Made by a program: the position numbers and the translations under genes. A stretch of DNA of 64,000 bases from Panopea generosa (lineage: Eukaryota > Mollusca > Bivalvia > Adapedonta > Hiatellidae). Position 1 is the first letter of the stretch. Every line of letters starts with the position of its first letter. Under the pieces are notes generated by a model. That model saw only the letters and a list, made by a program, of their open reading frames with translations. It searched no databases and had not been told where the DNA came from. This document shows, piece by piece, positions 4,613 to 60,826 of the stretch. The stretch is from positions 8,596,044-8,660,043 of the forward strand of contig CM055895.1 in NCBI GenBank assembly GCA_029582155.1. Reading direction: 5' to 3'.

Positions 4613-4689
4613 TCAATTTTTGACAACCTTTTGTCGAATCCAGTTAACATAGTTGTAAACACGTGTGTAAACTCCAGGGCTTTTAGCAT
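4613..4689 (-). CDS. Exon 19: C-terminal strand and stop
   Basis: Acceptor AATTTCAG; phase 1 in. Encodes [20 protein letters not shown], then VVKN and TGA. The P-G-V-Y-T-R-V strand and the Y-V-x-W-I C-terminal helix are standard S1 ends. No C-terminal extension or membrane anchor follows. Confidence 0.95.
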
Positions 4690-7600
4690 CTGAAATTTTT
4701 AAATTATGATTAGAATGATTGTTATAATAAAAGAAAATTATTTTGTAAAGAAATGCAAAAGTTATATTTTATATATCACTTTTTTGAAGTTGCTCTATAT
4801 TCAAGCGTTCCATCCTTGTAAAAAAATATTATAATTTACTTTTCTGTATACGTTCAACATTGTAAATTCAGTATCATATTCAAACCAATATCTAAGCTCG
4901 TATACAATTATCACGACCACACAAAGATGTGTGTTTTTGTTTAAACATTATATATCATTCTAGAACGAATAAGATATTACTTCCACATCCTGATCCAAAT
5001 GACGTCACACCCTGCAGATACCAAACATCGTGATACTTTACAACAAGAGGTCCACCACTATCGCCCTGTTCACATAAAATCGTAAATTGGTTCAAATTGA
5101 ATAGCGGTGCTAGTTTGATTTAAAAATATACAAACCAAGTTATTAAATTGTTTACAGTATTGTTAATGTTTTGTTTGTATTTTGAAAATTTTGAACATTC
5201 ATCCTTTACACAACATTTACACAACAAAATGTGTCATATCTTTTTGTCATTAGAGTTTCAACCTTGTACTTATATGAATATATTGTGCAGACATTCTTGA
5301 GAAAAAACAATGTACCAAGCAACGATAAAAGCAATATTTGAAATGTCTTTAAAAGGCCATAATCAGATATATATATATATATATATATATATATCCTGTT
5401 TAGAGTTTGAATTGCACAATAACCATTTGTGTTTGTTTAATTTACTTTGATTTTCCAATGAACATGTAATTAAATGTTTTGGTCATTGAAAAACTGTTTT
5501 ACATGACATTTTGGCGACATAAACGAAACATTAAAACTATCAGTTTTTAATACAACGCCTGTTTTGACTGACATACGATTTTCTCTGTCTAATCATGTTG
5601 TGAGGACGTTTTGCCGTGTTAACTATTTAAATAAATATACCAAAGACAGTGCAAAAACATTGCTTTTTTATACTGACTCTTTGAAGTAATAATGGTATGC
5701 AAAACGTCGTATACATTTGAATTTATTATAATTTCATTGACTAAATACCTGACATGCGTCATGGCCACCAATATCAAATCCAGCGCAGAACATGTTGTCC
5801 GTTATTTGGTTACCAAGGTAGTCGGGTTGATTGCATTTACTATTGCTGATGATTGGAACCATGGCTTGTTTTAAAACACCTGGGCAACATGTAGCTAAAA
5901 CAATACATGATAATGGTTGAATATAAAACTGCGATGTTTTAAAGTGATGAGTTCTTCCTTTTAATATGAAAATAAAGCAACATGTATCTGAGAAAATGTT
6001 GACTGGTAGCTGAATTATTCACACAATTTAATATGTTGACATTTTCTGTTTACTTCATTGCTGCAATGACAAAATGTCTATATTTGTGATTTGTATTCTG
6101 TTTACATTGTATGATTCAATATTTTAGGAATGTTGTCTATTATACTATTTTTTAATTCAAAATTGTGTATGCTGTAATTTGCTGTTAAACGTGTGAAAGT
6201 ACAGAATAACTTAGATCTCTGATCACATAATTGCTGTATAACATAACTTAGAAATTCTCAAGTTTAAAAAAATGTATAACATTCCGTTTGTATATAAGAG
6301 TTATTCCGTATTTGTTCTATTTTTAAGTTTGTTTTTACCAACATTATACTGCTTCAAAAAAAAGATACACGATTACATATTTTGTTTGAATCATATCTAT
6401 CTAGGTTGCATTCAATACAAGTTCCTGAGTATAAATACACGTTAAGTCCCCAAGATTATCCAAATCCAAAACCGTTTACTCAGTCTGCTTTAATCGAATT
6501 TATAAAAGGTATTAATGGCTATCATTTTAAACGCCTATTTTCACAGTCTTAAATGATTTATTTCTATTTCTTTTGTCTGGATTTCCAGCCCACAGAGAGT
6601 CAACATTTTATAACTTCTTTTAAAGAATTTTCTAAAACAGTTCACGGGATTTAATTTAGGTTGAGTAAAATATGATATTGCTGTTATTTCACTTATATAA
6701 AGATTTGTTTTTCCCGTTGTCTACGCATTTCTCATAAGTCTTTTTTTTTAAATCACGATTAAGTTCGTTTATATTTTTATTTTTGAAAACGAGTCAAAGA
6801 GTTCGTGCGTTGTCTTCTTTATATTTATATTTGAGTTTATACGAGTCATCATGCAATGTTGTCGGTTTATCAATAATTAATCTTAACCCTAAAGATTTGC
6901 AAAAATTATCAATAACAGTTGATCAGAAAAAATCTCTTATTAATGCATGTTATGTTAAAGCTCAACTTATTTTTAAACAATGATACTGATACAATCGTGT
7001 TCTGTTATCTCGAAAGCATTATCAAAATCTTATGAAAAAAAACGATATTCGTGACAAATAAATCGTTCATATCGGAACTTACCGAGAGTGCAATTAACCT
7101 CCGTCGGTTGCATTTCAATAAGATTGAACAATACCGAGTAATATCCCTTATTAGCAGAGAGCGCTGCGTCTTCATTTCATATTGCCAGATCAAACGAAAC
7201 ACGTTGAAAACTGTTCGAGTAGCTGAAATCTTTTTTAAAAGTTGACCATTCCACCCCATAATTTATCAAACGCATTCTAACGCTAGTTTATATTTGATAG
7301 ATATCCGAGATAACAGCGACGAGAAACTGACGTATGGACCAATGTTGAAGAAACAAAATTTGGGGAACCGGACGAAAGAAAACAAAAAACAAGAGTAAAA
7401 ACAAAGCTGAGTGTTTGACAATGGTTGAAGAGGATCTGCTGTACTTAATTCTTCCAGATAATTTGAATTTGTATATACGAGTGGACGTCACTAGTTATAT
7501 ATTATCAGGGCTTCTGAATTTTTACATGGTTCCATAAGTGTCAACAGAAGTTTTTTAAGTGGTAAACGCGTACTTGTTATATGCAAGTCACCAATGCCTA

Positions 7601-13187: not shown

Positions 13188-13226
<39 letters not shown>

Positions 13227-34200: not shown

Positions 34201-34225
34201 CGTATGTGGTTTACATTCCTGGTCG

Positions 34226-34265
<40 letters not shown>

Positions 34266-49200: not shown

Positions 49201-52200
49201 TAATTTATAATTCTTGAATATTGAACAATTGATGAAGATGACATCTAATTAGTTATTCTTGAATATTGATAAATTGATGAAGATGATAATTAGTAATAGT
49301 CTGGTAAAAATTCCATATATAACTCTTGAATATTGATATATATACAACTGATGAGTGTTATACTTCGTCATATTTTTAAAACCGTCGTTCATTAATGCGT
49401 TTCAGTTGGTCTGATATCCGTCACTATTATAGTTATTATCATCACCAATAGCATGGCAATGCTTACTATTGTTGCGTGTAACAGTCAGACAGGTGGTTGT
49501 CACTATAATTCTATAATTCCGAACTGTTTGGATGGAAATCTTTAGTATGCCAATGCTTACTGTTGCTGCGTGTAACAGTTAGACAGATGGTTGTCACTAT
49601 AATTCCAAACTATTTGAAAGGAACTTTTTAGCATGGCAATGCTTACTGTTGCTGCATGTAACAGTTCGACAGATCTTTGTCACTATAATTCTATAATTCC
49701 GAACTGTTTGAGTAGACAGGTATTTGTTACTATTATTCTAAATTTTCGAACTGTTTTAATCGAATAATTTAGCATGCCAATACTTACTGTTGCTGTGTGT
49801 TCCTTAGTTACAGTTAGACTGGTGTATGTCACTTTTATTATTACAAGCATCACCTATATCAATAACCTATCCTAGAACCTGATTTCTCCCGAATCAGATC
49901 TATTACCCCCATTCACCCCTATAAAAAAGCAGGGATGTCCATACCTGTCCCACAATTCATAGCTAGTGAACGCTTACTAAACTGTGACGTCATTCAAACT
50001 TTCTCTTAACCAGCTGACCAATCAACGTACTCAATTCCATTGCTTTGTAACGGACCCAATTGGAAGAACAGGGTCCGTTCTACATACTTCCTTCATATGT
50101 TTGTCGCCGTAACCGATACACCACTGATATCTATCTCTATCGTATGACTGTTTGATTTGAAATCTTAGCTTGCCACCCACTACTTACTGTTGGCGGGTGA
50201 AACTGAGTTGCAGTTCGACTGGATTTCGTCAGTATTATCGTTACAGTCATCATCACCATCACACAGCCAGTCGGACGGTACACAGTTTCCGTTACCGCAC
50301 GTGAACTCATTACCACCGCAGGAACCACCTGCAAAAGCATTTTAGTCGATAAATCATGTTGTTCTTACTGATGTTGTTATTGTTGTTGATGATATTGCTA
50401 CCGTTGCAATTTGTATTAGTTGCTGTTCGTCTGTATATTGATAGTGTAAGAGTACCTTCAAAGTACTGAAAATGTGAAAACGGAGATAGCATGGTTTTAG
50501 AGGACGCCAAGTAGGAAGGTGCATATATGTATATGGATATAATCGTATGTGAACAACCAGACACAAATCTACAGACCAGACAACGGTGAGCACGCCTAAT
50601 TACAATGCATGTTGTAGTTGTTGTGTGGTGTTTAGCGTTACTTTCAACAATTGTTCAGTTATATCGGGACGATGTCTTCTTGAGACAGTTATCTAATCAC
50701 ACTGGATTATAATGCCGCAAACACATGGTATGGTACCCCACACAGTCACATTATACTGACAATGGGCCGACAGGACCTAAAATATCCTCTAAATATTGAT
50801 CGGCAAGCAAAGAAGCTTCTGGTACCATTTCAAATCTTGTTATGATCCGACTGGGGATCGAATCCACGACCTTCCGCATACGAAACGGACGCTCTACCCA
50901 AAGACCATCGCTGTGATTAACTATACTGCAAACCAAGTACACAATACAATAGAATCAACTACATCAATAGCAATGGTTTCAACCGTTGATTATATATCAA
51001 AGTTTAACATACATAGTTCAAATAGCAGCCTTAGAAATGATTGTAGATACTTTTATTTATATATGTCCTGATTTCTTTTCACACGATTATCGCATTCCAG
51101 TATTTGTGTCTTTGCTACTGTCTGTCGGTCATTTAGTAACTTTCATTTCTGTTACATGTTAACCTGTTGTAGATCATACTGCGGTTAAAGGAGAAAACAT
51201 GTCACATGATAAAGCAGAGAAATGTTCTCAGTTAAACCTAAGTGCACACCTTCATCAACATCATATAAAGAAATGTGTAATAAAAAACAACGGCTTCATG
51301 AAACGTTATGGAAATCAATTATCTATATTATTTGGCTATTGTTAATGCACACCTGCGTTACTGTTTCATTTTATAAATGACTGTGTTGCATTTCTGTCTA
51401 CAAGTTAAGATGTTTGTAATATATGTAATGCAATTTTGAACAGTGTTGGAGTTATTTAAAGTCAATCAGCGCAATTAATTGGCGTTTCAGGCATCCGCCG
51501 TTTACTATTACTATCGACACACTATATTTTCAATCCACTGACTTCTTTCTCACATATTCAGAGTTGGGAGGTATATAGCCCTATAACAAAGTTCATGATC
51601 AGTCACCATAGACACACTAGCCGGGCAGGGACTCGAACTCAGGGCACTTGATAGGACGGTGAGACGCCTTATCTATTGATCTACTCATGTCCGATTTAAA
51701 CTAGTCAAGATAAAACGGACAGTTGTGATATTCAAGCATATACAGCATTAACGTTACCACCTTAATTTTTTATTTGGCTCTTGCAGATTTATGGTTATTA
51801 TATAAGTACTGCATATGCCTCGAACAAGGAAAGAGGGGAAATGCAAAATAAGGAATATATGAGGGTTTGTTATTTTAAAACATATGTAGAAGATAATCTT
51901 GTAGATTTAACTCAGGTTATTTTGAATAGAATATTAACGTCCATTTCAACACATAGCTGGTTAAATATGACATCTGGTTTTGTTTGAAGAGAAAGTTCTC
52001 ACATCGATGCTAAGATTGACCACCGCCCCGTTGCCATAAGCGATAGTTTCCAATGGTGTGATGGACGTAAATTAATAAAACACTACTTATGCATTTTTTT
52101 TTGCAGAGACATATTTGTATCAAATGCATATGTATGTATTTGATTGACATCTATCTATTCCGCTCATGGTATATGCATATATATGTATATCATGGTATAT

Positions 52201-55200
52201 GCATATATATGTCTACCATTGTATATATATATAAAGGGAGATAATTAAATTCACAACAACGGAATTTACGGTTTTTGGGATCTTTGTGAATAACCAAGAC
52301 ATTAATGTACAGACCAGACTACGGCGAGTGCGCCTAGCTACAATGCAAACCATAGATACAATATCAAGGCCTCTGCCAAACCAATAAATTTGGTGTCGAC
52401 CATGACTTATTTACTATGGAATTACATGCAACACATCTGGACAGGGTGGACAAATTTACATACATGAAGTGATAGCTTTTTTATGAGTAGGATCCAGTTA
52501 AGGATTCATTACTACTCACATGCTATATAAAGGACAGATTTATAAACCCGTTGGATCATATAGATACAATGAATTCATATATATTTAATTTCATAAAGGG
52601 AGATAATTAAATTCACAACAACGGAATTTACGATTTTTGGGATCTTTTCAGATGCTCATTCACAATGCATGATATATATATGGAGATATTATTTGTGAAT
52701 AACCAAGACATAGATGTACAGACCAGACTACGGTGAGTGCGCCTAGCTACAATGCAAACCATAGATACAATATCAAGGCCTCTGCCAAATCAATAAATTT
52801 GGTGTCGACCATGTCATGGTTATTCACAAATAATTATCTCCATATATATATATATATATCATGGTATATGCATATATATGCATATATACGATCAGCAGTT
52901 GCCATTGCAATGTACATACATACACATATATATCATATCACGTCTATCTCTTGGGGATATATTTGATTATGAGTTGACACTATTCGGCTAATTATAGACA
53001 CATGGTATCATCATGTTTACTTTTACGGCTAGATAGTGTAGATAGTTCACTGCTGATTGTATATACCAACCTGGTGTAACGCCATTGCAATTTTGTTCGT
53101 CACTGTCATCACCACAATCATCATCATTATCACAACGGAAGACGGCGTCGATACACTTACCATTCGCGCATTCGAACTGAGATGAGGAGGCACACGTGTC
53201 TGAAATGGTTTAACAAACAGTAGTAAAATATTGTATTGATATGTTACAGAGCAGAACAGAACAGAACATAAACTGTATTTGACTTACACATAGTATATCG
53301 TCATATAACAAACACATATACAAAATACATTTTTATCACGTTACAGAGATATTGTAATGTTAAAGTAAAAAAGCTATTAAATAGGAAAGAATAGAGACCA
53401 GTTACGTGTTAGGAAAGTTTTATAGATATATATACATTTTATAGGCATTTTTGATAAAATAGACTAAGTTAATTTTTTATTTTTTTTCTATTATAAGATT
53501 TTAGTAATTTTATAAACTTAAACATGCTTGGGTTTTGGTAAGAAGATTACGCATGCATTTTTTTCGAATATCAGAATAACAAGGACCTGTTAAAGTAAAA
53601 TGAAATTCATCTATCAAGCCCATGGTAACAGACAGAAATGAACTCCTGCGTACCAAAAGGCATCTTATAGACAATGTGGTTAACATGTGTACAAAGTTTC
53701 GTGATGTAACCTTGAACAGTTTGGGAGTTATGATCTGAAAACAATGAATTTTAAATCTTTGTCTATTGGTTTCCAGGGTAACAGAAAAAAATAGTGAACA
53801 TGTAAACTCCCTCATACCAAAACGAACTACTACACTATTATGTTGGCATGTATAGAAAGATTCCTGGTGAGACGTATTTGCAAAGCGCATGCATCAAGGG
53901 TCCGTGGTCCATTGGTCACATGTAAATGTTTAAGAATATGTGCATCTTACGATAAATACTAATAAATATATGTTTGTTTTTTTTTCCAGAAAAGCAAGCG
54001 TCCATGGTGATTGAAAGATCCGTCACAATACCACATTGCCTTAGTAGTTTCGAGTTGCTGAATCTAAGTCATGCAACGTTATAATGTAACTAATACAATT
54101 TTGAAGATACAGGTAATAAATCTTTACACAACAAGCCGTATATTGCATATTCGTTTGAAATTGATTTTTAAAGCTGTTAAATGTAACTTTTCCTGCCCAT
54201 TTTTTTTTCAAAGCAGCTTTGCTACAGTATTTTTTATTTGTGTGAAAAAACTATTTAGATAATTTCTTTAAATGTTCCTGTTTCATCAACATTTTACTAA
54301 AATATTTGACTAAGTTTTGACTGGTCATTTATCTATTGTATATTCAATATCAATGAAACCATAAACAGTTATACTGAGACCAGTCTAAAAACATGATCAC
54401 CCGGCTGCTTTATATAGATTTAAGTTTTTAAGTATTTAAGAATATGTAGGTAAAACCAGGAGTCTGAAAGAAAGTTTATTGTTGTAAAACCCTGTGGTAT
54501 CATACCAAGTGCCTGTGTCGTCGGACTACAGTGTTGTAGAACACTACTACATTATAAAGGCAAATCAAAGAAAATACCTTTAGAACATGATGTAGCATAG
54601 ACAGAAAATGATTTTAATATCGGTATGTATATGCAACGACACTTGTTCAAGATAAAGAAATTCCATTTGGAAATTGTGAAATAATGGAATGCACCCAGAT
54701 GTCGCTATATCGATCGAGCAAAGATAAGAGTACTAATTCGTAATTGTGGTATTTGGTGAACAGTTTCCAATCCTGTAATTCTAAAAGGAGTTTACGTCAA
54801 ATTGGATTTGTAATACTGTCAAAGACCGCGACTACAATTCGAACTTCATGTATAGATTTGACTCCGTGCCTTATCTCTATATGTTAAGACCATCTCAGCC
54901 AAAATGTTGTTCTGCCAGACGACACTGTCAGTGTACTAAACCGGAGTATTACATTGATGTCAAATATACCTGATAGTAAGTCTATATATGGAACCTCATA
55001 TCTCACGAATCAGGTCTATTAATCCCTTATGAAAAAGCAGGGAATTCAAGTCTGTTCCACAATTCATACACGTACACTCTTACTGAACTGTGACATCATT
55101 CAGACTTATTTCATGTAACTAATCAACGTGTTCGTAACAGTTGCTATTTAACGGAGCCGGTCTGGAGAGCTAGGGCCATTGTACAGACTCCCTGATAATT

Positions 55201-58200
55201 GAATACCTTGGAAGCATGATACCCAACCAAAAGAAGAAATTAGGAGGCTCGGTTTAATTGCTCGGTTCAACAGGACATAAAGGAATATGCAAATCACCTG
55301 CAGCCGTATTCTATTCAAATAATAACAAATTTGAATCAAAACACAGGGCAACTGTTCACAGCCGCCATATAGGACTTGTGTTATAATCGCCAATGACACA
55401 TGAACTCACCTACAAGAAGAAAATAGTAAACTCGTTTTCATTCAATATGATCATGGTTTTTAAACATGTAAAATTGGTCTCAATGTTTTCAGTAAATACA
55501 TAGACTGTTGTAGAACGGCTCTACCGCTTGCGTCTGTTACATAGCAATAGGATTTGAGCACGTTGATTGGTCAGTTGCATCAGGGAAAGTTGAACTGACG
55601 TCACAACTTGGTAAAAATTACTTTGAATTGTGAGACAGGTAAATAATTCTCTGCTTTTCAAAAATTCAAAAATATGTTCTGTTCTACTCTGTTAAATATA
55701 TCTACAGTCAAGCTTGTCTTAAGCGGCCAGTCAAGGGAAGGCGCAAAAGTGGCATTTTAAAACAGGTTGTTGCTTAATTCAGGTAAATTTGCTCTGAAAA
55801 CACAGAAATGGGAAATAGCGAATGTGACTTCTTAATACAAATGGCTGCTTAATAGAGATGGACCACTCATACAGGGTTGACTGTATATTTTAAGATGATA
55901 AAAAGTAGTACCCATCAGGAGGGTCAGCCCGTGAGACACAGAAGCATGAAAATTACACGGTTTACGACGGACTCATAGGCCTCATTAATTTTGCTTACAC
56001 TCTGTTTTCCAGTACTTTCTATAATAAGAAGAAGATTTCTAAAGTTTACCTTAAATTAAACTGTTTTTCACAGGCCCAGTGTTACAGATGGGGCCACTCA
56101 ATAAAACTTAAGCATTAATCGTCATTTCATTATGAAGAAGTCGAAAATGTGAATTGTTTACGGACGCACTAATATTTTTAGACCGTACCCCCAAGGGCCA
56201 AGCCGTGAGACCCGGGGACATGAACTTCATAATTTGTATTAAGGACTAATATGCGTCCAAAATCATGCTTACTATTTGTTTACCAGTGCTTCTTGTAATA
56301 AGAAGATATTTTCTAAAGATTATTTTGAATTTGACTATTTTGGTCCAGCCCCCCAAGGTCCCAAAGGGGTGGGAACCTTGTAATTCATAATTATTATTCA
56401 CCCTTAGGTACCAAAGCTGTATACAACATTTCATTACGAGTACGCATACGGTTATTTAGAAGAAAATAAAATAATGATTGTAACGGACGCACGGCGTACG
56501 ACGACGGACAAAAGGCGATTGCAAAAGGACGTTTGAGACAAACTCTCAGTTCACCTCAAATAGGGCATGAATATTTATACAACTTACGGATGACCGTTGT
56601 TGTGAAATTGTAGAACAATTTAAAGCCGCTCTGCTGCGTATCACCATCGGTAATAAATTGTAAAGTTAGAAATCGTCCAGTGGACGAGATTGTGTTAAAG
56701 CTGTTGCCACAGAACTTGCCCAAGCTCGGGGATGTGGTGGTGTTTCCATCGTAGAGCGTAAGGTAGTCGAAGGAGCAACTGAAATTGGAAATTTTGGTGG
56801 AAAGTAAAGTTATATATTTTGTAAATATAATAGGCATTGTAAATATAAATATCAGTTGCTATCAAGACAAACGTAAATACGATTATTTCTGTACGTATAT
56901 TGCGAAATAAATCTTTGAATGGGGCGTTCACTGACAGAGTTGTAAAATATGCTGTCTCATGACCACCTGCCTCTTTCAGGTGAAGTCGTGCAGTCGGACC
57001 CAGCTGATTATATACACTGCATGTAAGAAGGTTTACCAGCTTCTTGCGAAAACACGATTCTACTTGCATTCATTAATATACATCTGAGGTCCTCCGTTAC
57101 CAGTAAAACTGTTTGCCATGTATTGCATGTACTGTGTTGAAAATATCCGTATATATAGTCCAACTTAAGTATTTGAATTAACTTCAAAACAAAGTTATGA
57201 ATATATCAGAGTCATTTATGCTAAGATATGTTAACTTACGATGGGTCATCTTCTACATCAAAGCTTTCTGAACCGAGCGCCACAAATTGTCCAACTGGAG
57301 CCTCTATTCTCCAGATGCAGTCCATATTTTTTCCATAGTGGTGGTTAGCTTCGAATCCACCGTGGGACACAATTACGCCGTTGTCCGTGGTGTGGTAATC
57401 CAACCCGCCACAATTATAGGCTCGCTTCACTGTTAAATATTACAATTAATATTATACTTTATCCGCCATTTAAACTGTTTGAAAGTCACAGAGTGTGGTG
57501 TTAATATTAACAGAGTGGTATTTATAAGATTCATCTCAGTGTCGCTTATACTAACAACTCAGCTATAGAAGCAGGGGTGTCTTTTTGGAATATAATGGGG
57601 GTCAGGTGAGCTTAAAACAAATTTGAGCAAAAATGCATCAGAGATGTTAATCAACCACCAACACTTGCATTGTATTACTTTTAATGTTTTCAGAACGGTA
57701 CCAATCAACGTTATACAGATAAAATATTTAAATTCAAATAAAACATATCTAGATATATGCGCATATGACCCAAATTGTGTTATTAGACACAAAAACAGAA
57801 TACACAATCCCTTCTTGAACATATTCAAACCTGCCACAGCCTGCAAAATGATACACATTTCATAAAATATCCAATTTGGTTTAATCAAAACATTAAGGTC
57901 GGAGGCACAAATGTATTTTATAACCATTGGTTTTTTAAGGGGTATTAATAATTATGAATACAAATGGTAATTTCTATTCGATGATAGATTTTATCGATAG
58001 GTACAACATAACTACAGACTTCATAGAATATGAAGGATTGCTAGCATATGTTAGAATATATTTGTTTAAATTTCCAATTGAACATTTAGCTTGTAATGGA
58101 GGAGCACCTACATGTCCTTCATCAATTTCAATAATTATGAAAGATTAAAAAGGATGTAGATCTATATATCAGTCTCCTATACACGAAAATACAACCACTC

Positions 58201-60826
58201 AATCCGCTGCTAAATGGGGAGTGGGGATGGATATAATATCCAATCTGGTTGGGATCAAATTTTACAGCCTTCCTTTTAACATTACAAATGACATACATTT
58301 GCAATGGTTTCAAAACAAAATAAACCACACCTTATAAGGAATCAATTATCTTCTTAAAAATGAAAATAAAAAACTCTGATATTTGCAGTTAACAAACAGA
58401 GAAATAGAAACCATTAAACATACTTGTATTGAATGTGACATTTCTACTAAAATGCACGTAAATGTATAGGCATTAATTTAAATAGGAGAAAAACAGACAT
58501 TACTTTCGGAAATAAAAAAGTTATATCCGTCCCCATCCCCTCTCTAAAGTGCTTTGATATTTCTTTCTTTTCTTCTCATTATCACGACTAGATATTTAAG
58601 AAAATAATTATGTATTACTGATAGACTTCAATAAAGAAATCCCTTTTTTCAAAATAATGACTTTACAAATTCAGATAAAAAGATAATGCTGACTACTGAA
58701 TGTTAGTCAGATTGTTTTTATGCATTTATTAACGTCATATAATTGAAATCTGACACTCAATTTAGCTTATCTTGTTTTAACTGATTATACATCAATAACT
58801 GCAAAGGCTTGTGATAGCACTTCCGAAATTGGCAGTACATCAATGAGGATTCTCCTCAATGCTTGAGAGTCTAGATGAATAATTTAGGACTTATACATGT
58901 ATGTGAATTTTCGCATGTTTAGGTTATAATATAAAATATAATATTTATAGCTTTAAAAAGGAATCCAATACAAATGTTTAATCTACCAGATGTTTTATGA
59001 TGTCATAATACTTTAATCGTAGAAATTGATTTAAATCATATTTAATTTTGCACGTTTATAAATTCATATCTTTACAAATAATCTTAATGTTTGATAGACA
59101 TTAAGGCGTTGTCCCTGGTTTCACTTAACATATTTTCCTCATTGATAGTTTGCAATGCTGAAACATTACCTATATTAATTATACTGGATGAATATTTTAC
59201 CAATAAATACAGAGATGAAATTACTGTAATAGTGTGCGTTGATTTTATAATGATTTCAAGTAACAATTAAGAGAAATTGTCAAAAAAAATATTTGTGGGG
59301 ATTTCAGTCTGATCATTTTATTGAATACGTGAAACCTGTCCCTGAGCTTTGAACCGCACCTTTATCTGGATTGAGTGGACACTAATTTTTACTCAATCAA
59401 TTCTCACAGACACTTAATGGCTATCAGAAATACTAAAATGCGTATATTAGTGTCATGAAATATTTATGTATCAGCATGTCTGATTTTGTACTACTAAACT
59501 GAAATAAAAGTTATAAAAAAAAAAACAAATAGTATCTATGCCACTATACACTAAACGCATTTTAAAGGCATAAAATATAATTCTATACTTCTATCAAAAC
59601 CTTTCTTTTCATACGTTCTAACAAACCAGTTACTGTATATGATAAGGATCTGAGACATAATAAACTAAATGTTCTCACACTACGTGATATAAGGTGACGG
59701 TGTCAGTCAGTAAATCTAGACTAAACAACACGAAACTTGCCAAATCATCACAATTCCTTATTTGCAAAACGATGGTTTTGCTGTATGCAGACTGTATCAA
59801 AATGATGTGGCATTTTGTCACATATCATATTTCACGTACGTAACAATGCCGTGACAAACCCGGTACTCACTTCCGTAAAGTCGAACAAACTTTTTATAGA
59901 GACTTTAACGAATTTTAAAGTCACTTCGATTAATTAAATGTTTGACGAACTAAGTGACTACTTAAGATTAAATGTATTTAAGTGTACACGCGCATGCAAA
60001 TCGATATGGTATATTACATCACTATCTCAGAAGGGAAACAAATCAATTAAAATGAATCCTCAAATATTCGTCAGGTTACAGGCGGAACACCAGTTTGATT
60101 CGGTACATGGTAAAACAACTAAGGCCTTTACTTAAAAGTAAAGGAAATGATTGTGACTGCATAGCATGTCACAGCAATCACAGAGGAAAATATCGGACAC
60201 TCCGGGTAAGATAAGATGCAAATAGCACAGAACGAAATGTAGTATGGTGTTTTTTATGTGGAAGATGCATAGAGACGATATATGTCGAGGAAAGAGACTT
60301 GATGAGCATCGTGGAGCCATCTGGACACCGACAGACGAGTCTGTTGGCAACATCATTCAAAGCCACGTTAATGGTGATTTCTAAATATATATTGTACAGA
60401 AGATAAACATACCAAGAGGGAAATGGTGGAGGACATTTGGATGCAGTTTCTCGTAACATTTCTTATGATTATTATGTCATAGTCATTTCACTTGGCAACA
60501 TTATATTGAATTTAAATTATATTGACATATTTTATCTAAATAAGTTTATCATATGTATCACCTAGATTCTGTTTATATACTGAATGGAACAGCTAACCTA
60601 CCACTTGCCATGTACTAAAAATGTGGTGGGTTAGCTATATCGTTCAGTATATGATATTTCTAGCTCTGTATATATAACAAATTGATTTCTTCTGGGCTTA
60701 AGTTTCAACTGATTAAAATTCGAAACGGTATTAAATGTTCTTAATAAAAATAGTATAAATATACCTACCGGCTAGAGACTGGATAGCCGTAACCCCTAAC
60801 AATAGACAAGAAAACGACAGCAACAT
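4613..60826 (-). CDS. Secreted CUB/LDLa mosaic trypsin-like serine protease (19 exons, 917 aa)
   Basis: Gene model joined by hand from 19 exons, listed separately; all introns start GT and end AG, and all phases agree. Predicted domains: signal peptide 1-19, CUB1 about 26-141, LDLa1 149-184, LDLa2 193-229, CUB2 about 240-350, linker about 354-378, CUB3 379-493, CUB4 511-628, LDLa3 634-666, pro-segment with Cys671, catalytic domain 685-917. Activation would cut after Lys684, before IIGG. The triad is His725 (TAGHC), Asp774 (NNDIA) and Ser867 (GDSGGP). Asp861, six residues before the Ser, predicts cleavage after Arg/Lys. There is no transmembrane segment, so secretion is inferred. From family knowledge, CUB and LDLa modules bind protein partners and calcium, and Cys671 probably ties the pro-chain to Cys794 after activation. 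The substrate is unknown; developmental, digestive or immune roles are all possible. The domain order differs from the matriptase, enteropeptidase, MASP and ovochymase layouts as I know them. Confidence 0.93.
4981..5065 (-). CDS. Exon 18: catalytic Ser
   Basis: Acceptor TGTGAACAG, donor GGAA|GTAATA; phase 0 in, phase 1 out. Encodes [20 protein letters not shown] and then TSFGSGCG. Ser867 is the nucleophile. Val occupies the position of Cys201, matching the loss of its partner Cys136 in exon 16. Confidence 0.95.
5371..5393. repeat. (AT)n microsatellite
   Basis: About 11 AT dinucleotides in intron 17. Confidence 0.9.
5749..5894 (-). CDS. Exon 17: trypsin domain, S1 pocket Asp
   Basis: Acceptor TTGTTTTAG, donor CAG|GTATTT; phase 1 in, phase 0 out. 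Encodes [20 protein letters not shown], then C836, DNMFCAGF and GGHDACQ. Asp861 occupies chymotrypsin position 189. A second in-frame acceptor (TGCCCAG) 15 nt further on would start the exon at 5879 and drop five residues that include both vicinal cysteines. Confidence 0.92.
7740..8015. repeat. Tandem repeat with 79-bp unit
   Basis: The segment with TGTGTGTCTGATTGGCCAAT and TTGTTTGCCTATTGTGGCAA occurs at 7871 and again 79 bp later. Degraded relatives (AAGTGAATAATTGC) precede it from 7740. Confidence 0.75.
8690..8748 (-). mobile_element. tRNA-like SINE head remnant
   Basis: On the minus strand, GAGGTAGCGTAGTGGTTAGA (A box) is followed by GCGGGTTCTAC, a decayed B box. No matching acceptor stem, so a SINE fragment rather than a tRNA gene. 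Confidence 0.45.
9531..9838 (-). mobile_element. SINE family 1, near full length
   Basis: tRNA-like head at the high-coordinate end (GTGGTCTAGTGTTAGAGCGT, then GGGTTCAGTCCCCGGCCGGG as B box), the family body, and a (CAA)n-type tail at the low-coordinate end. About 310 bp. Close match to the copy at 28590. Confidence 0.88.
10060..11011 (+). pseudogene. Decayed LINE ORF1 (L1-like RNA-binding protein)
   Basis: Starts at an ATG ([14 protein letters not shown], basic) and stays in one frame to about 10880 with three stops (near 10117, 10192 and 10615), then needs one frameshift to reach the TAA at 11009. The middle is Lys/Glu-rich and looks like a coiled coil. It is followed by [32 protein letters not shown] and [15 protein letters not shown], the RRM plus C-terminal-domain layout of L1-type ORF1p. 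Non-functional. Antisense to the host gene, inside intron 16. Confidence 0.75.
11012..14466. other. Gap between LINE ORF1 and ORF2
   Basis: About 3.4 kb, far longer than the ORF1-ORF2 spacing usual in L1-like elements, so later insertions are likely. It holds a two-unit degenerate repeat (about 12340-12660), an (AT)n run at 13195-13221, TG/TATG-rich low-complexity sequence at 13440-13580 and an inverted-repeat element at 13590-13985. The rest is not recognised. Confidence 0.6.
13590..13985 (-). mobile_element. MITE-like element, family B, inverted copy
   Basis: Reverse complement of the sequence at 52232-52650: shared blocks include GGTCGACACCAAATTTATTG, TCTATGGTTTGCATTGTAGC, CCACCCTGTCCAGATGTGTT and the terminal GGTTATTCACAAATGATTAT. 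Ends in a (TA)n run. Confidence 0.8.
14467..17551 (+). pseudogene. Decayed LINE ORF2: endonuclease and reverse transcriptase (L1/Tx1-like)
   Basis: Begins [18 protein letters not shown], the APE-type endonuclease start. After a frameshift comes [13 protein letters not shown], then AGHFNV (AGDFNV in active enzymes, so the catalytic Asp is lost), and [10 protein letters not shown] blocks follow: [38 protein letters not shown]. The YADD codons at 16169-16180 are legible but flanked by frameshifts. Later come [15 protein letters not shown] and [16 protein letters not shown]. At least six frame breaks or stops: clearly dead. Clade assignment is by motif memory only. Confidence 0.88.
17552..18650 (+). 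mobile_element. 3' region of the L1-like element, repeated near 58500-59530
   Basis: No open frame. Homology to the second copy continues about 1 kb past the ORF2 stop (TCCCCATCCCCTC, TTCAATAAAG, CAATGGCTAT, GTCATGAAA, GAATAAAAGTTACAAA) and ends in an A-rich tract near 18640. This is read as a long 3' UTR. Confidence 0.7.
18907..19040 (-). repeat. Dispersed repeat family R4, inverted partial copy
   Basis: Minus-strand match to the R4 end GGGTCCGTTCTACAGAC and its middle, with the palindrome TGACGTCA at 18987-18994. Confidence 0.75.
19490..20030. repeat. Degenerate tandem array, roughly 120-160 bp units
   Basis: Repeated words: GATATTGCATGTAAATGACA, CGCCACAACAATAA, ATGTGCAACA-AAGACG and AAAGATATAACAATCACA, in the same order several times with heavy divergence. 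Confidence 0.75.
20604..20863 (-). CDS. Exon 16: trypsin domain, catalytic Asp
   Basis: Phase 2 in, phase 1 out. Acceptor TTTGAAG is weak, without a clear polypyrimidine tract, but it gives the correct join [18 protein letters not shown]. Encodes [20 protein letters not shown] with catalytic Asp774, SSVCLPD with the Cys expected to bind the pro-chain, and VTGWG. The residue at chymotrypsin position 136 is Gly instead of the usual Cys. Donor GGAG|GTAAAC. Confidence 0.93.
20864..21763 (-). other. Intron 15
   Basis: Holds a tRNA-headed SINE-like fragment at 21430-21632. I see nothing in 20864-21430. Confidence 0.6.
21430..21632 (-). mobile_element. SINE family 3 copy
   Basis: On the minus strand, GGGCCCGATTAGCTTAATCG leads into GTAGCGCGTCTGACTATCAA and then GCTCGAATCCCCGCTCGGTC, a tRNA-like A/B-box pair. 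The CAAGTGGGAAAGTTATCAGT body resembles the copies at 24351 and 37780. Confidence 0.6.
21764..21950 (-). CDS. Exon 15: pro-segment, activation site and catalytic His
   Basis: Acceptor CTTTTCTAG, donor GAGGG|GTATGT; phase 1 in, phase 2 out. Encodes a pro-segment with KCGRPP (Cys671), the activation site YK|IIGG, the substrate-strand CGGTLID and WVVTAGHC with catalytic His725. This is the standard first exon of an S1-family domain. Confidence 0.96.
21951..22524. other. Intron 14, part before the minisatellite
   Basis: AT-rich intron sequence; nothing recognised. Confidence 0.4.
22525..23850. repeat. 48-bp minisatellite, about 27 copies
   Basis: Unit built on AATATGCAGTATTTCACATT, then GTCACGTTTCATGGTAAACT and ATGAGGTC. 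Variation is mostly CGTTTC/CGATTC, GTAAAC/GTTAAC and ATGG/TTGG. The unit is divisible by three and stop-free, so the plus strand stays open for 421 codons (22532-23797), repeating [16 protein letters not shown]. It lies wholly in intron 14 of the minus-strand protease. Confidence 0.97.
23922..24026 (-). CDS. Exon 14: LDL-receptor class A repeat 3
   Basis: Phase 1-1 exon of 105 nt. Acceptor GTTGTAG, donor TGTG|GTAAGC. Encodes [19 protein letters not shown], then [11 protein letters not shown]: six cysteines in LDLa spacing with a D-x-T-D-E calcium cage. It sits directly before the protease pro-segment, as in many mosaic proteases. Confidence 0.93.
24351..24590 (+). mobile_element. SINE family 3 (tRNA Leu/Ser-like head)
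   Basis: Head CCCGTGGCCGAGAGGTCTAA with B box GGTTCGAATCCCGC, followed by GTGAGAAAGATTGCCAGTGA and a downstream A-rich stretch. Class-II tRNA-like, with a longer variable region. Too diverged at the 5' stem to be a tRNA gene. Confidence 0.65.
24591..25019. other. Intron 13, middle part
   Basis: Contains a long T-rich tract near 24928-24957; otherwise nothing recognised. Confidence 0.4.
25020..25110 (-). mobile_element. SINE family 2 tail fragment
   Basis: Minus strand reads GGTTCTACCCAGGAAGCAGA, then TTGTTTCGCAATTGAG and AAAATAAATTAG, matching the 3' part of the SINE at 29948-30155. The tRNA head is absent. Confidence 0.65.
25279..25495 (-). CDS. Exon 13: CUB4, second half
   Basis: Acceptor TTTCTAG, donor ATAG|GTATTA; phase 0 in, phase 1 out. 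Encodes [27 protein letters not shown] and [17 protein letters not shown]. Contains the third and fourth CUB cysteines and the calcium-type CSYDY motif. Confidence 0.92.
25496..27264. other. Intron 12, upper part
   Basis: About 1.8 kb of AT-rich intron with no exon, RNA or repeat recognised. Confidence 0.4.
27265..27565. repeat. Tandem repeat, about 77-bp unit x 4
   Basis: Each unit carries CGTGATAC...ATAGTTCAAATTTCAC, TTGTTGTAA and TTAATTGCAACAG. TTGTTGTAA and TTGCAACA can pair within a unit. It ends about 120 nt from the donor of exon 12. Confidence 0.85.
27685..27863 (-). CDS. Exon 12: CUB4, first half
   Basis: Acceptor TTCTTTAG, donor GAG|GTACCT; phase 1 in, phase 0 out. Encodes [20 protein letters not shown], then PGYDG and [20 protein letters not shown]. 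First two CUB cysteines and the C-N-W-I-I-E-A-P core are present. Confidence 0.93.
28236..28485 (+). mobile_element. SINE family 3, diverged copy
   Basis: Decayed tRNA-like head (GGTCGGCTAGTGACC, GATTTGAGTCCAGC), then GTGAAAAAGATTGCGATTTA and GGCGGTGGTTCTACTC, matching the body of the copy at 24351. Confidence 0.55.
28590..28898 (+). mobile_element. SINE family 1, full length with target-site duplication
   Basis: Body of 309 bp flanked by identical 12-bp repeats CTATCCGATGTG at 28578-28589 and 28899-28910. Head GTGATCTAGTGGTAGAGCGT (A box) and GGGTTCAATCCCCGGCCGGG (B box), then the family body, ending in a short (CAA)n tail. This is a clean tRNA-derived SINE and the reference copy for the other four. 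Confidence 0.93.
29697..29772 (-). mobile_element. tRNA-like segment, probable SINE head
   Basis: Minus strand GTGGCCTAGTGGTTAAGGTG and GTTCGAAGGTTCGAATCCAG look like Leu/Ser-type A and B boxes. The acceptor-stem ends do not pair, so it is not called a tRNA gene. Confidence 0.5.
29921..30345 (+). repeat. Dispersed repeat family R4, split by a SINE
   Basis: Left part 29921-29947 and right part 30156-30345 form one R4 copy (ACTTGATATCTCACGAATCA ... GTGACATCATT ... GGTCCAGTCTACAG) interrupted by the SINE at 29948-30155. The order of events is therefore R4 first, SINE second. Confidence 0.85.
29948..30155 (+). mobile_element. SINE family 2, full length with target-site duplication
   Basis: Head GGAGCGCGTGGTCCAGTGGT and B box GGGTTCGATCCTCCGCC, then GTGTCCTTGAGCAAGGCACT, CTACCCAGGAAGACTTCGAG and TTCGCAATCGAAGTAAAATA with an A-rich end. 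Flanked by AATCAGGTCTTT at 29936-29947 and 30156-30167. Related tails occur at 25020, 30806 and 61132. Confidence 0.93.
30471..30688 (-). CDS. Exon 11: CUB3, second half
   Basis: Acceptor TTTACTAG; phase 2 in, phase 1 out. Donor TCGT|GTAATA was chosen because only phase 1 joins exon 12. Encodes [13 protein letters not shown], then [20 protein letters not shown] and [10 protein letters not shown]. The third-Cys motif is CLRDG rather than the usual C-x-Y-D-Y, so CUB3 is the most divergent of the four CUB domains. Confidence 0.9.
30806..31066 (+). mobile_element. SINE with family-2-like tail
   Basis: A tRNA-like head (GCGGATGGTAGTTTAGTGCA, GGTCACGGGTTCGTCCCC) is joined to a different body and ends in TCGTCGCAATCGAAATAAAA, nearly the family-2 3' end. 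This looks like a distinct family sharing its tail, as SINEs that use the same LINE often do. Confidence 0.65.
31547..31690. repeat. Two-unit tandem repeat, about 92 bp
   Basis: AGTGTGAGTGCATTTTCGAA ... GCACGGGGCTA is repeated as AGTGTGAGCGCATTTTCGAT ... GCACGGGACTA, directly next to the donor of exon 10 (31691). Confidence 0.7.
31692..31872 (-). CDS. Exon 10: CUB3, first half
   Basis: Acceptor ATCTTGTAG, donor TTCAA|GTAAGT; phase 1 in, phase 2 out. A Ser/Thr-rich entry (LSTTAPHTG) leads to [20 protein letters not shown] and then [19 protein letters not shown]. First two CUB cysteines and the C-S-W-R-L-I-A-P core are present. Confidence 0.92.
32395..33755. repeat. 61-bp minisatellite, about 22 copies
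   Basis: Unit reads GTCGACAAGAGTCGTAGCTC, GTATTTAAATGTCATATGAT, ATCAAACAGAAGAACACATA, T. Occasional one-base insertions (AAGGAGTCG) and CpG-type variants. Lies in intron 9 between the linker exon and CUB3. Confidence 0.97.
34220..34312. repeat. (GTT)n microsatellite
   Basis: About 30 trinucleotides with a few GTG interruptions; about 150 nt from the linker exon. Confidence 0.95.
34463..34501 (-). CDS. Exon 9: 39-nt linker exon between CUB2 and CUB3
   Basis: Short phase 1-1 exon, acceptor GTTTTAG, donor ATTG|GTAAGT. Encodes roughly [13 protein letters not shown], a basic, domain-free linker. It is isolated between an 8.3-kb and a 2.6-kb intron. Exons 8 and 10 would also join in frame without it, so it could be a cassette exon. 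Support is phase, perfect donor and placement only. Confidence 0.65.
35339..35396. repeat. Perfect-arm hairpin
   Basis: GATATATTAACTTACATGTAA is mirrored by TTATATGTAAGTTAATATCT, with a short loop. No flanking structure; too short to name. Confidence 0.6.
36050..36660 (+). repeat. Interspersed repeat with internal about 160-bp tandem units
   Basis: Starts near AGCTCGACTATTCGGAG and ends near GATGAGTCGAGCGCGCTG. Inside, units with TGGTTAAAGTTT, CAAGTA, TCAAACCTACTA and AATGCAAATTATTGCCCTT recur three times. The style resembles a repeat I associate with bivalve genomes (from memory). Confidence 0.7.
37780..37955 (-). mobile_element. SINE family 3-like fragment
   Basis: Minus strand GGTCCTCCGTTGCCTAGGTG and GAGTTTGAGACCCGCTCGCT form a decayed tRNA-like head; GAGAAGGTCTGCCAGTTACT and GGACAGTGGTTCTACTTTG match the family-3 body. 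Confidence 0.6.
38268..38715. mobile_element. Large foldback (inverted-repeat) element
   Basis: Two long arms are reverse complements over most of about 190 bp: AAGAGTGCCGTCTTTGTCTT, CTACTGTTAAATTTTCTTGA and CGAAGCTACCCCCAAAAGTG on the left match AAGAGTGCCCTCTATGTCTT, CTACTGTTAAATTTTTTTGA and CGAAGCTACCTCCAAAAGTG read from the right. A short unpaired centre lies near 38455-38540. No coding capacity. Confidence 0.88.
40833..41073. mobile_element. MITE family A copy
   Basis: Left TIR TATACTGAACGGAACAGCTA then GTCCGCCA; the right TIR read inward is TACACTGAACAGGTAATCTG then CCA. Body shares TTAAGTCAAAATTTCAAA and AGGTACATAAAGAGTCAGGT with the copy at 44317. Confidence 0.85.
41455..41625. repeat. 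40-bp tandem repeat x 4
   Basis: Unit ATTGTTTGTTTATACATGTG then TGTATGGAGTTTTGTTAA. Confidence 0.92.
41671..41890 (+). repeat. Dispersed repeat family R4 copy
   Basis: Contains CTAATCAGGTCTATTAACCA, GAAAAAGCAGGGAATTATAT, TGACGTCA at 41774-41781 and ACTGGGTCCGTTCTACAGAC. Confidence 0.85.
42415..42495. repeat. About 25-bp tandem repeat x 3
   Basis: AGATATGAAAACGCAACGCA followed by GGA, three times with one or two changes. Confidence 0.9.
42784..42906 (-). CDS. Exon 8: CUB2, last third
   Basis: Acceptor TTGTTGTAG, donor CTAC|GTAAGT; phase 1-1. Encodes [20 protein letters not shown] and then [18 protein letters not shown], with the fourth CUB Cys and the closing F-x-S-D-x-S-x-x-x-G-F motif. 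GC content is clearly higher than in the surrounding intron. Confidence 0.93.
42907..43500. other. Intron 7, part near exon 8
   Basis: No feature recognised. A 109-codon open frame runs on from exon 8 into this intron on the minus strand and has no further domain. Confidence 0.4.
43505..43650. repeat. 36-bp tandem repeat x about 4
   Basis: Unit CTGGTCAATCTACTAGCTAT then TGTGCATTTCTATGTG, one unit partly deleted. A poly(T) tract follows at 43667-43690. Confidence 0.92.
44317..44550. mobile_element. MITE family A copy
   Basis: Left TIR TATACTGAACGGAATAGCTT then ACCCGCCA; right end TGGCGGGTTACCTATTCCGT then TCATTATA is its near-perfect inverse. About 234 bp, no coding capacity. Insertion lies about 170 nt from exon 7. 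Confidence 0.9.
44718..44820 (-). CDS. Exon 7: CUB2, middle
   Basis: Acceptor TATTTTCAG, donor CATG|GTAAGT; phase 0 in, phase 1 out. Encodes the [20 protein letters not shown] strand and then YVSIYTD. This holds the third conserved Cys with the CSYDY signature and an upstream Glu, as in calcium-binding CUB domains. Confidence 0.92.
44821..45850. other. Intron 6, part near exon 7
   Basis: AT-rich intron sequence; nothing recognised. Confidence 0.4.
45853..46215. repeat. 56-59-bp tandem repeat x 6
   Basis: Unit TACCATGAAACTGATATATG, GTAAGAAATGAATGTATAAT, then CATTGTATATTGTTAAAAC. Later units switch to a shorter variant with TTACTGCCTATTGATA. Confidence 0.93.
46821..47098 (-). mobile_element. 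SINE family 1, diverged copy
   Basis: Minus-strand family-1 body (GCGACGCCAAGCACCATACA 3' end, GATATCATATCATGTGTCCG) with a decayed tRNA head near 47040-47098. Ends about 55 nt from the donor of exon 6. Confidence 0.82.
47153..47277 (-). CDS. Exon 6: CUB2, first third
   Basis: Acceptor TTTATTGCAG; phase 1 in, phase 0 out. Donor AAG|GTCACA is non-consensus after GT, but only it joins exon 7 in frame. Encodes [20 protein letters not shown], a textbook CUB opening, and then [14 protein letters not shown] with the second Cys. The SINE at 46821-47098 sits only about 55 nt into the following intron. Confidence 0.9.
47278..48455. other. Intron 5, part near exon 6
   Basis: A short (GTT)n run near 47547-47567; otherwise nothing recognised. 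Confidence 0.4.
48456..49290. repeat. 45-bp minisatellite, about 18 copies
   Basis: Unit TAACTCTTGAATATTGATAA, ATTGATGAAGATGTAATCTA, ATTAG. Two main variants (GTAATCTAATTAG and GACATCTAATAAATAG) alternate over part of the array, suggesting a 90-bp higher-order unit. Confidence 0.95.
49400..49860 (-). pseudogene. Decayed tandem copies of the LDLa2 exon end plus flanking intron
   Basis: About four or five diverged units resemble the live exon at 50188-50328 and its downstream flank. The copy ending near 49783 keeps the donor CAACAGTAAG and on the minus strand reads [16 protein letters not shown] before a stop, against [17 protein letters not shown] in the live exon. The other units keep only the exon tail (SNC... 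and CAGTAAG) and the intron words AACTGTTTG...GAAAT. All carry deletions or stops. The alignment is by eye. Confidence 0.7.
49871..50098 (+). repeat. Dispersed repeat family R4 copy
   Basis: CCTGATTTCTCCCGAATCAG ... TGACGTCA (49985-49992) ... CAGGGTCCGTTCTACATACT. It abuts, and probably interrupted, the nearest decayed LDLa copy. Confidence 0.85.
50188..50328 (-). CDS. Exon 5: LDL-receptor class A repeat 2
   Basis: Symmetrical phase 1-1 exon of 141 nt. Acceptor CTTTTGCAG, donor CAACA|GTAAGT. Six cysteines: [14 protein letters not shown], then [20 protein letters not shown]. The acidic calcium cage is present, with T-D-E in place of the usual S-D-E. Decayed copies of the 3' part of this exon plus flanking intron lie just below it at 49400-49860. 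Confidence 0.94.
50611..50915 (-). mobile_element. SINE family 1, diverged copy
   Basis: Minus-strand body with AACGCTAAACACCACACAAC at its 3' end and a tRNA-like head (GGTCTTTGGGTAGAGCGTCC, GTGGATTCGATCCCCAGTCG). Confidence 0.85.
51545..51692 (-). mobile_element. tRNA-headed SINE fragment
   Basis: Minus strand GTAGATCAATAGATAAGGCG, then GAGTTCGAGTCCCTGCCCGG, a clear B box. The 3' part (GAGAAAGAAGTCAG) is family-3-like. Confidence 0.55.
51693..52230. other. Intron 4, middle part
   Basis: Ends in a TATATGCATATATATG-rich stretch (52160-52230). Nothing else recognised. Confidence 0.4.
52232..52650 (+). mobile_element. MITE-like family B, long copy
   Basis: The block AAAGGGAGATAATTAAATTC ... 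TTTTTGGGATCTT occurs at both ends (about 52232 and 52597) as direct repeats. The interior carries GGCCTCTGCCAAACCAATAA and GTTGGATCATATAGATACAA, which match the inverted copy at 13590-13985. Confidence 0.75.
52672..52851. mobile_element. MITE family B, short copy with 40-bp terminal inverted repeats
   Basis: Left TATATATATGGAGATATTAT then TTGTGAATAACCAAGACAT; the right end read inward is TATATATATGGAGATAATTA then TTTGTGAATAACCATGACAT: one indel and one mismatch over about 40 bp. About 180 bp, embedded in (TA)n, which fits TA-targeted insertion. Confidence 0.88.
53071..53199 (-). CDS. Exon 4: LDL-receptor class A repeat 1
   Basis: Symmetrical phase 1-1 exon of 129 nt. Acceptor CCATTTCAG, donor CACCAG|GTTGGT. 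Six cysteines in LDLa spacing: [15 protein letters not shown], then [18 protein letters not shown]. The C-x-D-x-S-D-E signature that coordinates calcium is intact. A symmetrical single-exon module like this can be duplicated without shifting the frame. Confidence 0.95.
53510..53905 (-). repeat. Two-unit repeat of about 170-bp modules
   Basis: Both modules carry GGTAACAG, AAATGAACTCC/ACATGTAAACTCC, CGTACCAAAA/CATACCAAAA and TTAACATGTGTACAAAG/TGGCATGTATAGAAAG in order. A 126-codon open frame across it (53510-53890) is judged a by-product. Confidence 0.6.
53906..54990. other. Intron 3, middle part
   Basis: Nothing recognised. Exons 3 and 4 join in frame without any sequence from here. Confidence 0.4.
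54991..55190 (+). repeat. Dispersed repeat family R4 copy
   Basis: GAACCTCATATCTCACGAAT, CAGGTCTATTAATCC, GAAAAAGCAGGGAATTC and TGACATCATTC, in the same order as other copies. The CRE-like core has decayed by a CpG-type G-to-A change. Confidence 0.85.
55501..55662 (-). repeat. Dispersed repeat family R4, inverted partial copy
   Basis: Minus-strand match including the stretch CAACGTG and TGACGTCA at 55596-55603. Opposite in orientation to the copy 300 bp below, so the pair could fold back. Confidence 0.75.
55880..56560. repeat. Interspersed repeat with two similar internal modules
   Basis: Two modules share CCGTGAGACAC/CCGTGAGACCC, AAGCATGAA/GGACATGAA and TAATAAGAAGAAGAT/TAATAAGAAGATATT. It ends with GGACGCACGGCGTACGACGA and CGGACAAAAGGCGATTGCAA, a tail I associate with bivalve repeats (memory only). 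It ends about 30 nt from exon 3. Confidence 0.65.
56588..56778 (-). CDS. Exon 3: CUB1, second half
   Basis: Acceptor AATTTCAG, donor C|GTAAGT; phase 2 in, phase 1 out. Encodes [11 protein letters not shown] with the third Cys, LGKFCG with the fourth, and the closing SGFKLFYNF strand. These are standard CUB landmarks. The acidic residues around CSFDY and the ITDGD loop could bind calcium (inference from cbCUB domains). Confidence 0.93.
57240..57429 (-). CDS. Exon 2: CUB1, first half
   Basis: Acceptor TTTAACAG, donor TC|GTAAGT; phase 1 in, phase 2 out. Encodes the start of a CUB domain: YNCGG with the first conserved Cys, the G-V-I-x-S-x-G-G-F strand, then [17 protein letters not shown] with the second Cys and the typical C-x-W-x-I-x-A-P core, and the acidic run [10 protein letters not shown] that precedes the third Cys. 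Confidence 0.93.
57830..59530 (+). mobile_element. 5'-truncated copy of the L1-like LINE (ORF2 end and 3' region)
   Basis: Matches 16640-18650: [18 protein letters not shown] and [15 protein letters not shown] are recognisable, against [18 protein letters not shown] in the larger copy. Stops and small deletions throughout. Homology continues through the non-coding end (CTTTATCTGGATT, CTCAATCAATTCTCACAGAC, GTGTCATGAAA) to an A-rich tail near 59515. Inserted antisense in intron 1. Confidence 0.85.
59531..60574. other. Intron 1, middle part
   Basis: No confirmed feature. 60160-60370 is less AT-rich than its surroundings and may be decayed coding sequence (see findings). Confidence 0.4.
60575..60652. 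mobile_element. MITE family A, minimal 78-bp hairpin copy
   Basis: TATATACTGAATGGAACAGC then TAACCTACCAC is followed, after a loop of about 17 nt, by its inverse GTGGTGGGTTAGCTATATCG then TTCAGTATA. The ends match the TIRs at 40833 and 44317, but the interior is gone. Lies about 115 nt past the donor of exon 1. Confidence 0.88.
60769..60826 (-). CDS. Exon 1: start codon and signal peptide
   Basis: Reads [19 protein letters not shown] and then one base of the next codon (phase 1). The hydrophobic core and small residues before the junction fit a cleavable signal peptide. The start has A at -3 (AAACATG). The donor is G|GTAGGT. A later GT four bases on (GTAG|GTAT) would break the frame into exon 2, so the first is preferred. 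The frame stays open for some codons upstream, but only this ATG gives a signal peptide. Confidence 0.82.

Follow-up and report, generated by a model that had tools for sequence, protein, structure and literature searches.

An apparently intact gene for a mosaic serine protease with the domain order CUB-LDLa-LDLa-CUB-CUB-CUB-LDLa-trypsin

The stem of enteropeptidase carries MAM and SRCR domains, and the receptors LRP3, LRP10 and LRP12 start with the order CUB-LDLa-LDLa-CUB. In S1 proteases a pocket formed by Asp189, Gly216 and Gly226 gives Lys/Arg specificity, and the genes show the intron phase pattern 1-2-1-0. According to the parts of the published accounts available to us (PMC11312191, PMC5577568, PMC1761132, PMC11172050, PMC5331069, PMC3520120, PMC10376093, PMC6331135, PMC9265791, PMC10850435, PMC4593178), the LRP3/10/12 group together with Lrad3 carries two CUBs along with between three and five ligand-binding repeats (PMC5331069), and matriptase-2 consists of a SEA domain, two CUBs, three LDLa repeats and the protease (PMC10376093). 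MASP is described in the same way as CUB-EGF-CUB-CCP-CCP-protease, with molluscan MASP-like proteins lacking the CCPs (PMC11312191), and ovochymase of the ascidian Halocynthia as a protein in which CUBs follow protease domains and alternate with them (PMC9265791); 'LDL' does not occur in the text of the latter paper. The barnacle CUB-SP, as presented in the available part of its description, is a protein of 569 residues with a signal peptide, two CUBs and a trypsin-like protease, which blots suggest is split into two parts; two proteins compared with it have one CUB each, and the legend of the motif figure lists LDLa, so that one of the proteins drawn there may carry this module (PMC4593178). 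Honey bee mosaics are reported, again in the text available, to have the order CUB-protease or LDLa-containing stems (PMC1761132).

The window analysed here is a stretch of 64,000 bases (32.5% G+C, no N), in which six-frame scans found minus-strand motifs of CUB, LDLa and trypsin from about 57.3 kb to 4.6 kb. Exons were obtained by scoring open exons with AG/GT edges together with a codon model for which 15 recognisable anchor segments served as the training set, start exons being scanned separately from internal exons. Full-length exons resulted for 12 of the 15 anchors, the other three (the second half of CUB3 and the last two protease exons) not being settled by the scoring, and for two parts of CUBs that were still lacking, the segments 31872-31692 and 44820-44718 each came out as the top-scoring non-anchor candidate of its place among the eight rows listed. 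The joined model on the minus strand, 60826-4613, comprises 18 exons with 2,691 bases and 897 codons (896 residues plus the stop), as follows.

Exon 1, 60769..60826, minus strand: start codon and signal peptide (19 residues), with a phase-1 donor; from hydropathy and the start-exon scan
Exon 2, 57240..57429, minus strand: first half of CUB1
Exon 3, 56588..56778, minus strand: second half of CUB1 (CUB1 79.4 bits)
Exon 4, 53071..53199, minus strand: LDLa1 (43.3 bits)
Exon 5, 50188..50328, minus strand: LDLa2 (47.7 bits)
Exon 6, 47153..47277, minus strand: first part of CUB2
Exon 7, 44718..44820, minus strand: middle part of CUB2
Exon 8, 42784..42906, minus strand: last part of CUB2 (CUB2 93.6 bits)
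Exon 9, 31692..31872, minus strand: first half of CUB3, after an intron of 10,911 bases
Exon 10, 30495..30688, minus strand: second half of CUB3 (CUB3 92.8 bits); weak acceptor and donor, other ends possible
Exon 11, 27685..27863, minus strand: first half of CUB4
Exon 12, 25279..25495, minus strand: second half of CUB4 (CUB4 96.1 bits)
Exon 13, 23922..24026, minus strand: LDLa3, adjoining the protease (31.6 bits)
Exon 14, 21764..21950, minus strand: Cys1 (residue 650), activation site Lys663/Ile664 and His57 (residue 704)
Exon 15, 20604..20863, minus strand: Asp102 (residue 753) and Cys122 (residue 773)
Exon 16, 5749..5894, minus strand: Asp189 (residue 840), after an intron of 14,709 bases with LINE-like remnants
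Exon 17, 4981..5065, minus strand: Ser195 (residue 846) in GDSGG, and Gly216 (residue 867)
Exon 18, 4613..4689, minus strand: C-terminal end of the trypsin domain with Gly226 (residue 877), then the stop codon

The original prediction had placed the start at 60826 and the end at 4613 of the minus strand and had claimed unbroken phase; both ends recur in the 18-exon model, which likewise translates in an unbroken frame with no inner stop. Its count of 19 exons and 917 codons was not reproduced (here 18 and 897, stop counted), and a single-exon scan of the 17 introns found no extra phase-compatible exon of 60 nt at the thresholds used. GT-AG was imposed as a search condition at every junction and so is not independent evidence for the chain. 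Introns 9, 10, 12 and 17 have a weak splice site; the ends of exons 10 and 17, like the start of exon 18, were fixed by eye to suit the phase, the chosen acceptor of exon 10 scored below an alternative that would shorten CUB3, and those of exons 6 and 8 scored slightly below candidates of another phase. A few exon edges may shift by several codons, the domain order being unaffected. Intron phase says more about the chain than the GT-AG edges do. The introns at module borders (introns 1, 3, 4, 5, 8, 10, 12 and 13) are in phase 1 in eight cases out of eight, a count weakened by the weak sites just named, by the intron 10 donor, hand-picked for phase, and by the exon 6 acceptor, which sets intron 5 and was also phase-chosen; the nine introns inside modules, including intron 7, which is set by the choice of exon 8 acceptor, have mixed phases. 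Within the protease the phases follow 1-2-1-0 with one extra phase-1 intron. Apart from introns 8 (10,911 bases) and 15 (14,709 bases), intron lengths range from 291 to 3,388 bases. When the protein was compared with the window by tblastn, 44 of 45 matches fell on model exons and the remaining one (E 0.33) contains a stop, no second copy of any module being found in the 64 kb. The gene appears to be intact and to encode one mosaic protease.

The spliced model reads signal peptide, CUB-LDLa-LDLa-CUB-CUB-CUB-LDLa-trypsin, stop, the domain order being as had been predicted, and Pfam recovers this order on the 896-residue protein with four CUB stretches (3e-103), three of Ldl_recept_a (6.1e-25) and one of Trypsin (2.1e-71). 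Scanned singly, all seven stem domains exceed their own Pfam cut-offs, the lowest-scoring being LDLa3 (31.6 bits against a cut-off of 24.1), Trypsin likewise passes its cut-off in the full protein, and the domain calls are far beyond chance. The cysteine count fits, with four per CUB and six per LDLa. Each CUB keeps acidic residues which, from the CUB alignment, we take to be calcium ligands; LDLa1 and LDLa2 appear to retain the acidic calcium motif, while in LDLa3 two positions of this putative motif are occupied by Asn and Glu. The CUBs match those of cubilin, PCPE-1, neuropilin, NETO2 and MASP, and the first LDLa pair matches repeats of the LDL-receptor type. There was no Pfam match in the 896-residue protein for SEA (E up to 0.001), EGF, CCP, Ig, MAM or SRCR. 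The protein looks like familiar parts newly arranged and not like a new kind of protein.

The S1A trypsin-like domain is complete (Pfam Trypsin 240.7 bits, profile positions 1-220 of 220). The catalytic triad (His704, Asp753 and Ser846), the activation site (Lys663/Ile664) and the trypsin-type pocket are all intact, the pocket residues Asp189, Gly216 and Gly226 being Asp840, Gly867 and Gly877 as located from motifs and from the plasmin alignment. This alignment (213 bits) covers residues 2-245 of the 250 given; six extra residues stand ahead of the Asp102 motif, and there are minor gaps at other places. In the top 60 of the 250 solved sequences that the protease matched, the nearest are plasmin/plasminogen (213 bits), TMPRSS11D (190 bits), and enteropeptidase and plasma kallikrein (both 189 bits), and matriptase is absent from these 60; the comparison set consists of solved structures alone and does not place the protease in a clade. 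The prokaryote library NCBIfam gave nothing for the protease domain. The protease cysteines are Cys1, 42, 58, 122, 168, 182, 191 and 220. Cys650 (Cys1) and Cys773 (Cys122) align with plasmin cysteines that presumably form an interchain disulfide pair, and plasmin cysteines 136 and 201, which we also take to be a disulfide pair, are both replaced. The adjacent Cys797-798 in exon 16 have no obvious partner; this exon has two candidate acceptors 15 bases apart, at 5894 (used) and 5879, and use of the latter would remove the adjacent cysteines but shorten the protease.

With the matriptase subgroup (matriptase, TMPRSS6 and TMPRSS7) the protein shares the order CUB-CUB-LDLa-protease at its C-terminal end and a zymogen cleavage site ahead of the protease, yet it has one LDLa before the protease where those proteins have three or four, an extra CUB-LDLa-LDLa-CUB block, and a signal peptide in place of an anchor, and no SEA was found. 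Its N-terminal end resembles that of LRP3/LRP10/LRP12 in the order of the domains. The CUB-LDLa-LDLa-CUB start of these receptors is present here; however, they are transmembrane proteins with further LDLa repeats and no protease, whereas here there is a protease and no second hydrophobic stretch, and thus no transmembrane segment followed by a cytoplasmic tail. Enteropeptidase, too, has LDLa and CUB modules ahead of the protease; its heavy chain aligns over CUB1-LDLa1 (60.9 bits) and its protease is a near relative (189 bits, in the best 60 of 250), but no MAM, SRCR or SEA was found in our protein, nor does it have a membrane anchor. Going by the available parts of the respective papers, it is like Halocynthia ovochymase in being a trypsin-like, putatively secreted protease with several CUBs, but it has a single C-terminal protease, with the stop at 4613, in place of more than one protease with CUBs C-terminal to one (PMC9265791); and it is like the crustacean CUB-serine proteases in having a signal peptide, CUBs and then a trypsin-like protease, but with four CUBs and three LDLa repeats in place of the two CUBs of barnacle CUB-SP (PMC4593178). 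The original prediction had inferred that the order is unlike that of known families, and it does differ from those of matriptase-2, MASP and ovochymase as given in the accessible text and from that of enteropeptidase. With no membrane anchor and no SEA, EGF, CCP, MAM or SRCR domain found, the protein fits none of the named families (matriptase, enteropeptidase, ovochymase, MASP/C1r/C1s and LRP3/10/12). The same order was not found in the parts of the open-licence literature text consulted, figures excluded, which is a weak absence. Searches of viral contigs (one pattern match) and genome contigs (three pattern matches) gave no relatives; neither is an animal collection, and the result has no bearing on rarity.

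We consider it probable that this single gene produces a zymogen with trypsin-like specificity that is secreted, depends on calcium and belongs to an extracellular protease cascade, docked by its modules, activated at Lys663 and tethered by a disulfide. In such a scheme the four CUB and three LDLa modules, presumably with bound calcium, would dock the zymogen on a ligand, which might be a glycoprotein, a lipoprotein, an egg or epithelial coat, or a surface-bound recognition protein. A trypsin-like enzyme or a neighbouring copy, as putative activator, would cut after Lys663, freeing Ile664 and switching on the protease. A predicted Cys650-Cys773 disulfide would tie the protease to the docking chain, and for that reason cleavage of its presumed substrates after Lys/Arg would stay local. 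The protein would be a candidate regulator in an invertebrate whose cascade proteases are poorly known.

Alternatively, the locus could hold two neighbouring genes, one for a CUB-LDLa-LDLa-CUB protein, receptor-like or soluble (60826-42784), and one for a CUB-CUB-LDLa-protease (31872-4613), the halves having been joined on paper through compatible phase-1 edges. Exons 8 and 9 are separated by 10,911 bases, the second longest intron, although the protease part itself holds an intron of 14,709 bases, so that great intron length is nothing foreign to the gene. Each half is a complete module set, and the CUB2 frame meets a stop no more than two codons past the exon 8 donor (the open reading frame ends KALRK at 42779). 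At 434 bases beyond exon 8 there is an AATAAA/ATTAAA site; since 11 of 17 exons have one within the next 600 bases, it is not special. At the thresholds used, a scan for first exons of signal-like type and with a phase-1 donor had no hit in the gap between exons 8 and 9 (the only one across the 17 introns is in intron 4), and the frame ahead of exon 9 has several stops with no start codon near that exon. As far as sequence can tell, the first-exon scan, the closed frame and the poly(A)-site counts favour one gene, and we regard a pair of genes as unlikely.

The N-terminus of the single-gene product is signal-peptide-like (hydropathy maximum 1.98 over 19 residues), and the spliced model contains no second hydrophobic helix, the maximum 19-residue hydropathy after residue 25 being 1.23 and no later transmembrane-type stretch being found; from this we infer that the protein is secreted. 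Provided that exon 1 is right, it lacks the N-terminal transmembrane anchor of a matriptase-type TTSP, and an anchor exon could lie beyond the window. It is very unlikely, in our estimation, that an anchor-bearing true first exon was missed and that the gene encodes a type II membrane protease on the lines of matriptase or enteropeptidase. The stem of matriptase-2 as described in the text available, with two CUBs and then LDLa repeats before the protease (PMC10376093), would suit such a protein, and an open reading frame upstream of exon 1 (61115-61024, minus strand) encodes a hydrophobic stretch with basic residues ahead of it and has a fair donor (3.9). However, this frame ends in phase 2 and cannot join directly to exon 2, which needs phase 1, whereas the start at 60826 offers a signal-like stretch together with a donor that scores highest in the gene (6.2) and suits exon 2 in phase; nor did Pfam find the SEA domain. 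Although CUBs stand before a trypsin-like protease as in MASP/C1r/C1s, CUB2 matches the CUBs of MASP-1/2/3, C1r and C1s, and a molluscan MASP without CCPs is said, in the part of the account available, to bring about cleavage of C3 (PMC11312191), we consider it most improbable that this is a lineage-specific protease of complement type (MASP-like), in that no EGF, CCP or Ig was found, three LDLa repeats are present, and cubilin, PCPE-1, neuropilin-1 and NETO2 outscore every MASP with both stem halves.

As to how the arrangement of this putatively secreted protease arose, the original prediction had suggested two ancestral modules fused into one protein, a notion less well supported than the single intact gene. 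The resemblance of the two blocks to two known orders is in keeping with that idea, and it is possible that a CUB-LDLa-LDLa-CUB block like that of LRP3/10/12 was joined upstream of a matriptase-like CUB-CUB-LDLa-protease block; a duplication of one block, by contrast, is unsupported by the CUB identities. Among all six CUB pairs compared, the closest are CUB3-CUB4 (39.3%) and CUB1-CUB4 (39.1%), against 35.8% for CUB2-CUB4 and 32.4% for CUB1-CUB3. Duplication of a four-module block, which would make CUB1 the counterpart of CUB3 and CUB2 that of CUB4, is not supported, since those pairs are not the closest. Introns inside the CUBs are in phase 2 (CUB1), 0 and 1 (CUB2), 2 (CUB3) and 0 (CUB4). CUB1 and CUB3 thus share phase 2, but by eye the introns of CUB3 and CUB4 lie close together, and therefore the introns do not decide on block duplication. 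The simplest reading of the history, taking fewer steps, is exon shuffling in which modules of phase 1-1 entered an S1 protease gene one after another. A more speculative explanation, and in our view a rather unlikely one, is a gene fusion in which the start of an LRP3/10/12-type receptor ectodomain was combined with a matriptase-like protease minus its anchor, giving a soluble enzyme whose cascade would be peculiar to the lineage and serve immunity, fertilisation or the handling of lipoproteins; if this were true, the ligand-binding block of a receptor would have come to be used to aim a protease. Mosaic S1 proteases bear on how exon shuffling builds new extracellular cascades, and a fixed receptor-like block together with a protease block would offer a clean example in which such a fusion could be dated and tested. 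Should the order prove common in related animals, the locus would call for routine annotation only.

A number of other features were observed in the window. Intron 15 (14.7 kb) contains a LINE-like remnant on the opposite strand (10195-17548, plus strand); of its six open reading frame pieces, one (15768-16295) gave a sub-threshold Pfam match to reverse transcriptase and five gave none. Upstream of exon 1, at 61586-63070 on the minus strand, a frame of 495 codons with a reverse transcriptase match (65.2 bits) looks like a piece of a retroelement. Rfam gave nothing at gathering score in the window, and ARAGORN made a single tRNA-Pro(cgg) call in intron 10 (29699-29772, minus strand), which could represent either a gene or a repeat derived from a tRNA. 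There are tandem arrays in introns 5 (48452-49290, a 45/135-base repeat with 18.8 copies of 45 bases), 8 (32425-33743, a 61-base minisatellite with 21.6 copies and 90% matches) and 13 (22650-23845, a 48-base minisatellite with 24.9 copies and 94% matches). As 48 is a multiple of three, the last of these produces an open frame of 431 codons on the plus strand of intron 13, which is most likely meaningless.
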